Assembly: GCA_018222835.1 (NCBI GenBank)
Contig: JAAEZN010000008.1
Location: forward strand, 1 to 64,000
Source of the DNA: Algicola sp.
Lineage (GTDB): Bacteria > Bacteroidota > Bacteroidia > Flavobacteriales > Flavobacteriaceae
Length of the DNA stretch: 64,000 nucleotides
Direction of reading: 5' to 3'
Shown here: piece after piece, positions 59,782 through 61,200 of the stretch
Numbering within the stretch: the first letter of the stretch is position 1
Layout: every line of letters begins with the position of its first letter
Notes under the pieces: model-generated
Told to the model about the DNA's origin: nothing
Seen by the model: only the letters and a program-made list of their open reading frames with translations
Databases searched by the model: none
Made by a program: the position numbers and the translations under genes

Positions 59782-61200
59782 ATGCGCAAGTTTGTGGTTT
59801 GTATTTTGGTTATGGTAAATTGCTCGTTAAGTTGGGGGCAAGAGCTTGTTTTGCCATCAGATTTTAGGCAACATTCGCTCACTCAGTTCAATGCTAGTTT
59901 ATGGAACCCGACTTATGCCTTGGATTGGAACAAACCCAACTCATTGTCCATTTGGACACGTTGGCAATGGCAGAGTATTGATGGTGACCCAACGTCTATC
60001 TTTGCCAATTATACACATCAACTTACACCGAATACAGTTGCTTCAGCTGGCTTTTTGCAGCACAATACAGGGGTGTTTTTATACACTGGGGGAAACTTGA
60101 ATTTTGCCCAAACCTTTCAGCTTGGCGAGGGAATCAGCTTAATGGCCGGACTAAACACGTTTGCTTTTCAACAAACTGTGGCTGATGGGCAATTTGGTAT
60201 AGAAGATGAGCTTACTCCTGAGGAATTGGAAGGCCTTGAAGGTATTAAAGACCAATTTTCACCAGGACTTCGGCTATTGGTAAACCGATTTAGTGTTGGT
60301 TTGGCTTTTGAAAATGCTATTGGCTTCAACGTTTCCGGTAACCAAGAAAATATGGATAGTTTTCAAGTTATAACAGGGACTCTTGGCAATGATTTCCCGA
60401 TCATGATATCGGAGAGTTTTGGAGATAGTTTTATAAGACCGGTTGTTTATGTAAAATCCGTGCCGGAGGGAGATACCCAGTATGGCATCAACGGTTTGAT
60501 GTCCACATCCAAGTTTTGGGTACAAGGCGGCTATAACAGTTTTTATGGTGTTTCTGGCGGATTAGGGGTTACTATATCCAATGCCTTTTCAATTGGTGGG
60601 CTTATGGAATTTGGAACAGATGATTTATTGACAGATGAAGACCCGACCATAGAAATTGTGGCATCATATCACTTTGGAAAGACAAAATTCAAGAAAAAAG
60701 AGCCAAGACTCGAAGACGAAGAGGAAAAATCAAGACAGCTTGAAGAAGAAATCGAACAACAGCGAAGAGAAGAGGAACAAAGGGAGCTTGAAGCAAGAAG
60801 GCAAATGCAGCGCGAGAAAGATTCTTTAGCAGAAATTCGACGAAATAAGCAGCAGTTGGAGCTACAACGCAAAAAAGATAGTATTGCACGTTTACAAAAT
60901 CAGAAAGTAGAGGTAAAACCCAATGAAAGATATGAAGAGGTTGAAAATGAGGATGGGCTGCAACCAGGGTTTTATTTGATCGCTAACGTGTACGGCACAA
61001 AAAAGTATTTCGAAAACTTTATGCAAACGACCAGGGGGATGGGGTTGGAGCCTAAATCCTTTTATAGGAAAGCGAATAAATACAATTATGTGTACTTAGA
61101 ACGATATAACACCATGGAAGAAGCCAGAAAAGCCCGGGATAGTAAGTTTTTTGGAAGGTATGGGGATAAAACTTGGATTTTCCGTGTAAAGGGGAATTAA
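59782..61200 (+). CDS. PorP/SprF-type outer-membrane protein with coiled coil and SPOR-like C-terminus
   Basis: A 472-residue protein. Signal peptide about 1-19 (NCSLSWGQ). Residues about 20-300 look like a PorP/SprF beta-barrel (QHSLTQFNASLWNPTYALDWNKPNSLSIWTRWQW start; FWVQGGYNSFYGVSGGLGV near the end), a family that serves type IX secretion and gliding. Then a charged helical coiled coil at about 303-385 (EEEIEQQRREEEQRELEARRQ), and a C-terminal domain 393-472 (PGFYLIANVYGTKKYFENFMQ...YNYVYLERYNTMEEARKARDSK) resembling a SPOR fold. Usual PorP/SprF proteins are about 300-340 residues and end at the barrel. Confidence 0.82.
   Translation: MRKFVVCILVMVNCSLSWGQELVLPSDFRQHSLTQFNASLWNPTYALDWNKPNSLSIWTRWQWQSIDGDPTSIFANYTHQLTPNTVASAGFLQHNTGVFLYTGGNLNFAQTFQLGEGISLMAGLNTFAFQQTVADGQFGIEDELTPEELEGLEGIKDQFSPGLRLLVNRFSVGLAFENAIGFNVSGNQENMDSFQVITGTLGNDFPIMISESFGDSFIRPVVYVKSVPEGDTQYGINGLMSTSKFWVQGGYNSFYGVSGGLGVTISNAFSIGGLMEFGTDDLLTDEDPTIEIVASYHFGKTKFKKKEPRLEDEEEKSRQLEEEIEQQRREEEQRELEARRQMQREKDSLAEIRRNKQQLELQRKKDSIARLQNQKVEVKPNERYEEVENEDGLQPGFYLIANVYGTKKYFENFMQTTRGMGLEPKSFYRKANKYNYVYLERYNTMEEARKARDSKFFGRYGDKTWIFRVKGN

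Follow-up and report, generated by a model that had tools for sequence, protein, structure and literature searches.

The window, by which we mean the whole stretch of 64,000 nucleotides of Algicola sp. DNA that was analysed, encodes a PorP/SprF-type barrel with an additional C-terminal tail, and this raises the question of what such a barrel does with such a tail. An earlier note on the sequence had read the tail as a coiled coil followed by a SPOR-like domain, and had proposed that the protein ties an outer-membrane component to the cell wall, doing alone what separate PorP and PorE/OmpA-like proteins do together. The open reading frame at 59782-61200 on the forward strand is real. It starts with ATG and encodes 472 amino acids, and the reading frame, the profile matches and a structural model together describe an orphan gene whose product is SprD-like: a PorP/SprF barrel, then a charged helix and a tail of SPOR fold.

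The barrel assignment was borne out. The PorP_SprF profile (PF11751) matches residues 34-296 (59881-60669, forward strand) with 125.4 bits against a cut-off of 22.3, and TIGR03519 gives 118.2 bits against 90.55. The AlphaFold2 model of the whole protein, built on 34 alignment rows with a mean pLDDT of 82.8, contains 14 barrel strands at residues 54-297 (59941..60672, forward strand), a helix at residues 313-372 and a C-terminal domain at residues 396-469. The modelled barrel resembles channels of the FadL family (Z about 22) as well as chain F in 8gl6 and 6h3i, two entries for type 9 secretion (Z 21.1 and 20.9), and the protein combines the PorP/SprF profile match with a 14-stranded FadL-like barrel, the latter taken from the predicted model. 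A probable signal peptide covers about residues 1-19 (59782..59838, forward strand), as judged by eye from the hydrophobic start before ...SWGQE and from a model helix at residues 2-17. Behind the barrel we counted 175 residues, in agreement with the extra 170 or so noticed earlier. No OmpA domain was found among the Pfam matches of the protein at E<=10, that is, it carries no PorE-type C-terminal domain, and when the whole protein was compared with the sequences of solved structures, the three matches at E<=1 included no SPOR entry. The nearest named relatives are Flagellimonas/Muricauda/Allomuricauda proteins with 72-77% identity, a comparison from which very near records may be missing, and this group is the probable origin of the window.

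The side of the membrane on which the tail lies follows from the orientation of the barrel. The usual orientation, we assume, puts both ends of the window protein in the periplasm, and the 14 strands, the probable signal peptide and the resemblance to FadL and to type 9 translocon barrels point to the periplasmic tail that had been supposed. A tail on the outer surface, adhesive or capsule-binding, is hardly credible: we found no support for it, and all of these features speak against it, as does the description of the C-terminal tail of SprF as periplasmic (PMC12635249).

The C-terminal domain (residues 396-469; 60967..61188, forward strand) was assigned from profiles, the model and fold matches. 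It is modelled in the order strand-helix-strand-strand-helix-strand with pLDDT of about 94, and when it was modelled by itself the pLDDT was 93.6; the SPOR-like fold of the earlier note was upheld. The profile search gave a divided answer. The domain of the window protein itself reached 13.4 bits with SPOR (PF05036), below the cut-off of 21, while four PorP-barrel proteins among ten scanned passed it with 36.7, 43.7, 36.3 and 21.4 bits. One of these four belongs to the same genome, in which a further paralogue on contig C56 stayed below the cut-off at 14.7 bits. SPOR was matched by 34 of the 40 members of the tail alignment, A1 (E<=10, best 5.8e-7), and the runner-up family, AP2, by six of the 40 (best 0.0084). 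When the window subfamily was compared by hhalign with 12 other SPOR domains of Flavobacteriales, the probability was 94.5 with an E value of 7.6e-8. Foldseek with the lone domain placed DedD first with E 0.0066, and no match fell below 0.001. In the VIA comparison, DedD (Z 6.9), RlpA (6.6 and 6.5), CwlC (6.4) and DamX (5.9) stood before a gap, the next row, of unrelated chains, being at Z 4.0; the top row was BPSS2145 (Z 8.9, its SPOR label unchecked), and FtsN, with Z 3.6, is a weak point of the assignment. A search of solved structures with A1 gave 11 matches at E<=10 and no SPOR entry among them, and the mixed alignment A3 found CwlC and FtsN. Since relatives pass the Pfam cut-off, the profile-profile comparison is positive and the fold matches are DedD, RlpA, CwlC and DamX, we conclude that the modelled domain is a divergent SPOR fold. 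Two members enter this class through A1 alone, namely the PorP protein L131, which had no SPOR match at E<=0.1, and the Flavobacterium SprD described below, whose tail has no Pfam match. The SPOR part is also the best-conserved segment of the protein, as its mean identity to the window protein over 33 relatives is 66.1%, compared with 46.5% for the barrel and 29.1% for the helix.

The likely ligand is less clear than the fold. The Arg preceding the conserved third-strand Val, which forms the basic patch in FtsN, is kept in 9 of the 12 other Flavobacteriales SPOR rows, and the same position is an invariant Tyr in all 40 A1 rows. SPOR folds are glycan binders, and in RlpA a Gln contacts the glycan (PMC6895207). 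By the CwlC alignment this Gln maps to an aliphatic profile position, where the window residue is Ile, and Gln was found at this position in none of the 12 other Flavobacteriales rows. Because of these Gln-to-Ile and Arg-to-Tyr replacements, the usual SPOR ligand, denuded peptidoglycan, is uncertain for the window domain.

Domains of this subfamily also occur outside PorP proteins. A1 matches the end of a secretin-domain protein (L122:1-1728; Secretin 102.3 bits, SPOR 14.6) and the end of a triple-LysM protein without a Pfam SPOR match (L127:1492-3225). Two PorE-like proteins with PD40, carboxypeptidase-regulatory and OmpA domains, L231:450-2951 (reverse strand) and L232:591-3149 (forward strand), carry an N-terminal SPOR domain of the window subfamily, for which the Pfam scores of 19.2 and 16.2 bits lie below the cut-off. 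A1 matches in PorE-like frames of 840-901 aa were seen in 7 of 10 genomes, two of these frames having been domain-scanned, and the one in G227 lies directly behind an unfused PorP. Moreover, an OstA/LptA-like protein (L233:3-2054, forward strand; OstA_2 139.7 bits, SPOR 14.4 bits) ends in a SPOR domain of the window kind (A1 118 bits), and G211, G212 and G182 contain similar long frames that may be of this kind.

Between barrel and SPOR-fold domain, the model and the composition define a helix at residues 313-372 (60718..60897, forward strand) with 16 K/R and 17 D/E among its 60 residues. It is as highly charged as had been noticed, and the proposed coiled coil found no support, the heptad periodicity showing no excess over shuffled sequence (p=0.585) and i,i+4 ion pairs being unenriched (p=0.213). 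Linkers in the fused rows span about 52 to about 1250 residues, and with such variation the helix is no fixed-length ruler between the outer membrane and the wall. The longest of them, of about 1250 residues from barrel to SPOR, is seen in the Flavobacterium SprD (L158:4870-9774); it is Ala/Lys-rich where seen and, if helical, would much exceed the width of the periplasm.

Which lineage of carriers the window protein belongs to can be read from its own genome. This genome has 14 PorP_SprF genes, and a tail of the window type is found in three of them. The window gene has one SPOR domain, a frame of 614 aa on C56 likewise has one, and two are present in a 691-aa frame on C115. The C115 carrier comes after a CHU_C/Ig protein and is itself followed, in the position of sprB, by a very long frame that is cut by the contig end. 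The same order recurs in a Flavobacterium-like genome (G579), where the fused carrier has 1635 aa. A primer published for the final 33 bp of sprD from F. johnsoniae (PMC9870892) matches L158:9745-9766 with one mismatch, 33 bp, stop included, from the end of this PorP-SPOR reading frame; sprC is reported directly before sprD (PMC9870892), and the SprC homologues of the C115 and G579 loci align with E values of 4e-26 and 3e-28 in the two directions. Based on the gene order and on the primer match at the end of the reading frame, we identify the G579 fused carrier as SprD. The SprC homologues at L158:3384-4865 and L168:6473-8731 were missed by TIGR04131 or scored below its cut-off, so that counts of type B substrates may omit SprC.

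In a barrel-only tree of 71 rows, all 39 fused rows, SprD included, lie beyond one branch with support of 98/87, in a tree that is unrooted and has three rows on long branches, for which the program warns of long-branch meeting. It omits G201:C1:842114, a weak PorP match counted among the 85 unfused carriers below, and two G628 frames whose barrels were unmatched by the PorP profile used. The distant fused rows L175 and L176 hang near the unfused side, and with an unrooted tree this makes a single loss of the tail as possible as a single gain. The window gene falls in a subgroup separate from SprD and does not occupy the position in the sprC-sprD-sprB-sprF operon. Since the sprD of this genome lies on C115 and the window gene elsewhere, we assign the window gene, by sequence relationship, as an orphan paralogue of SprD and not as SprD; the earlier note had overlooked that the protein has the architecture of SprD. 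Nine of 11 genomes have one copy with two SPOR domains, one of the window type and another with a single SPOR domain, where copies absent from the tree were typed by frame length, domain number and synteny; the exceptions are G150 and G077 with two and three window-type copies, respectively.

The fusion is not unique to this genome, a possibility ruled out by matches of the window protein at E<=1e-57 in 48 of 299 sampled genomes of the family. At E<=1e-10, with barrel-only matches included, the number is 145 of 299. There are three or four fused carriers per genome in 11 genomes, picked for such a match. Of 296 genomes sampled across the phylum, 22 contain the A1 domain at E<=1e-7, three of them beyond the family: a PorP-SPOR protein in G435, a contig-end piece in G405 (SPOR over the cut-off, PorP under) and a secretin in G445. 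A further PorP-SPOR protein, L109, comes from another family of the same order.

We then consider what the window protein might carry. Its locus is conserved, with flanking cluster 1 (histidine-phosphatase-like) and cluster 2 (TetR-like, both by eye) each present in 43 of 44 loci, the window included and at least one genome apparently present twice. No type B gene adjoins the window copy. At the syntenic locus of G077 and G288, a protein of 724/725 aa is encoded immediately upstream of a tandem row of fused carriers, three in G077 and four in G288. The G077 protein passes both TIGR04131 (38.7 bits) and CHU_C (57.8 bits) and is 30% identical over its length to the SprC of the window's own genome, and the G288 protein aligns with this SprC similarly. 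Among the stretches of the window's own genome that were examined, the closest relative of these partners is the C115 SprC homologue. The distant fused carriers L175 and L176 each follow directly after a type B gene. In 11 genomes, a TIGR04131 match (E<=0.001) lies directly upstream of 12 of the 34 fused and 69 of the 85 unfused carriers; the 12 comprise all 10 two-SPOR copies, a copy of 538 aa in G150 and, in G077, a single window-type copy, and six of the 12 upstream matches exceed the curated cut-off. The presence of type B genes beside fused relatives supports a carrier function of the family, and since none adjoins the window copy, its cargo would be encoded elsewhere in the genome. The lack of such a neighbour in the window and the lower share of fused than of unfused carriers with one count against this reading. 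Window-type PorP-SPOR genes stand in tandem rows of two to four in G077, G288 and G150 (L155, L156, L019).

Here, we need to consider that the protein may have left type IX secretion altogether and now be a plain tether between outer membrane and peptidoglycan, possibly acting at division sites, a role in line with that of other SPOR and OmpA-like proteins. The window copy has the weakest PorP score among the 14 of its genome (127 bits, the other 13 at 167.9-319.8) and could for this reason have lost carrier activity; moreover, it is an orphan kept at one core-genome site, and the SPOR part is its most conserved part. We nevertheless regard this as improbable, given that the syntenic locus holds a type B gene in G077 and the homologue of that gene in G288. 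An orphan carrier that works in trans, Fjoh_1677, is also known (PMC12618676), and candidate cargo is at hand: 16 type B matches were counted in the genome, SprC among them with a score under the cut-off, and five have no adjacent PorP, one on C141 at a contig end and four away from contig ends. On C56 the fused carrier begins 473 bases from the contig end, which cuts off its upstream side.

Whether the tail takes the place of PorE was examined in the same 11 genomes, which contain 119 PorP matches. A PorE-like gene, defined as a same-strand OmpA frame of >=550 aa that lies no more than 4 kb downstream, follows none of the 34 fused and 33 of the 85 unfused carriers (p=2.0e-6), a value that overstates the contrast, since the fused forms are one lineage and ten of the 11 genomes were picked for having a window-type gene; it is one evolutionary contrast and not 34. 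OmpA matches that were weak or secondary, eight in all, lay in frames of <=337 aa, below the 550-aa threshold, and were left out. Together with the relatives that follow a type B gene, this result favours the idea of one protein combining the roles of PorP and PorE. The expectation that fused and separate forms would exclude each other at the genome level failed, as both coexist in all 11 genomes.

The ends of the carriers differ with their neighbours in an uneven sample of 50 classed carriers (all 14 of the own genome, all 15 of G236, 8 of 9 of G032 and 13 selected from five other genomes): a PorE-like gene lies downstream for 14 of 19 carriers ending in PRFF or PRFY, 0 of 6 ending in Cys-x-Cys, 0 of 17 ending in SPOR and 0 of 8 others. 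The PRFF or PRFY end is common among unfused carriers (e.g. L002, L004, L006), and this motif may dock PorE. Known type B carriers are either track-bound, as is SprF, whose Cys-x-Cys end is bound to GldK (PMC12635249), or static through PorE (PMC9143113, PMC12618676), and the helix-SPOR tail is a third kind of carrier end beside these two. The window protein has no Cys after residue 14, and without a cysteine in the tail a disulfide of the SprF type is excluded for it.

We suggest that SprD-type proteins are carriers of surface proteins with a built-in periplasmic anchor. In the window protein, which we hold with somewhat better than an even chance to be a SprD-paralogue carrier, the 14-stranded barrel would collect a type B substrate of type IX secretion, either an Ig-domain protein resembling SprC or a different orphan type B protein encoded elsewhere in the genome, and would keep it at the cell surface. 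The charged helix would reach into the periplasm and end in the SPOR-fold domain, which would couple the carrier to a periplasmic structure, most likely peptidoglycan. In this way the tail would stand in for the separate PorE of other carriers and also for the Cys-x-Cys end that links SprF to GldK.

SprC, the presumed substrate of SprD, is reported to move on the gliding track (PMC12635249, citing a thesis), and this motion disfavours a purely static wall anchor. It also makes coupling to the track a serious rival, in which the SPOR-fold tail docks on the moving GldJ/K/N filament and not on peptidoglycan; SprD-type proteins would then be a second class of track-riders beside the Cys-x-Cys carriers, and the window paralogue a further track-bound carrier. 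SprD is encoded in the sprB operon, the canonical glycan residues are replaced in the window domain, and fused carriers lack the PorE gene that is present in the carrier operons called static (PMC12618676). We still consider track docking rather unlikely, because binding of glycan is what SPOR folds are known for (PMC6895207), and the same SPOR subfamily occurs on OmpA-containing PorE-like proteins and on an OstA-like protein, which give no hint of a track. The carriage of SprC by SprD is itself our inference, and the multirail structure is reported in each spr mutant (PMC9870892), so that SprD is dispensable for building it. The tie between outer membrane and wall in the earlier note is thus partly supported, a static tie not being the sole reading in view of the SprD architecture and of the motion of SprC.

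Returning to the carrier with periplasmic SPOR coupling, we further propose, tentatively and with somewhat less than even confidence, that the tail sets the fate of the cargo: Cys-x-Cys would lead to the GldK track, PRF[FY] to PorE, and helix-SPOR directly to the wall or the track, with SprD as the dedicated carrier of SprC. How type B adhesins come to be moved along the cell or kept in place is actively discussed in work on Bacteroidota gliding. If SprD-type proteins do act as carriers with SPOR coupling, SprD gains a testable job, deletion of a single domain would probe the wall or track attachment of a whole carrier lineage, and the last residues of a carrier could predict the fate of its surface protein. 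SprC and SprD have been called 'SprB supporting proteins' (PMC7440613), SprD is required for gliding (PMC11885536), and spr mutants show limited gliding on some surfaces with the multirail structure kept (PMC9870892). In the parts of the literature available to us we found no biochemical role of SprD stated and no pairing of a SPOR domain with SprF or SprD; as that search was incomplete, an earlier mention may exist.

Compared with known systems, the window protein is closest to SprD of Flavobacterium, with which it shares the PorP/SprF barrel, the charged linker, the SPOR-fold C-terminus and the barrel lineage. Unlike SprD, which adjoins sprC and sprB, the window copy stands as an orphan elsewhere. 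It has a single SPOR domain, where the SprD of its own genome has two, and the linker of the Flavobacterium SprD extends over about 1250 residues. SprF and the other Cys-x-Cys carriers have the same type of barrel and are type B carriers according to the papers, but their GldK-bound Cys-x-Cys end (PMC12635249) has no counterpart in the window protein. PorP with PorE in P. gingivalis and the PorE-linked carriers of F. johnsoniae are thought to have a periplasmic tie to the wall (PMC9143113, PMC12618676), as we propose here; in those systems the wall-binding part is a separate OmpA-domain protein, whereas the window protein has a SPOR-fold domain within the carrier. Finally, the SPOR domains of DedD, RlpA, CwlC and DamX share the fold of the window domain, which differs from them in its identity of 7-15%, in the replacement of the glycan-site Gln and Arg, and in its fusion to an outer-membrane barrel.
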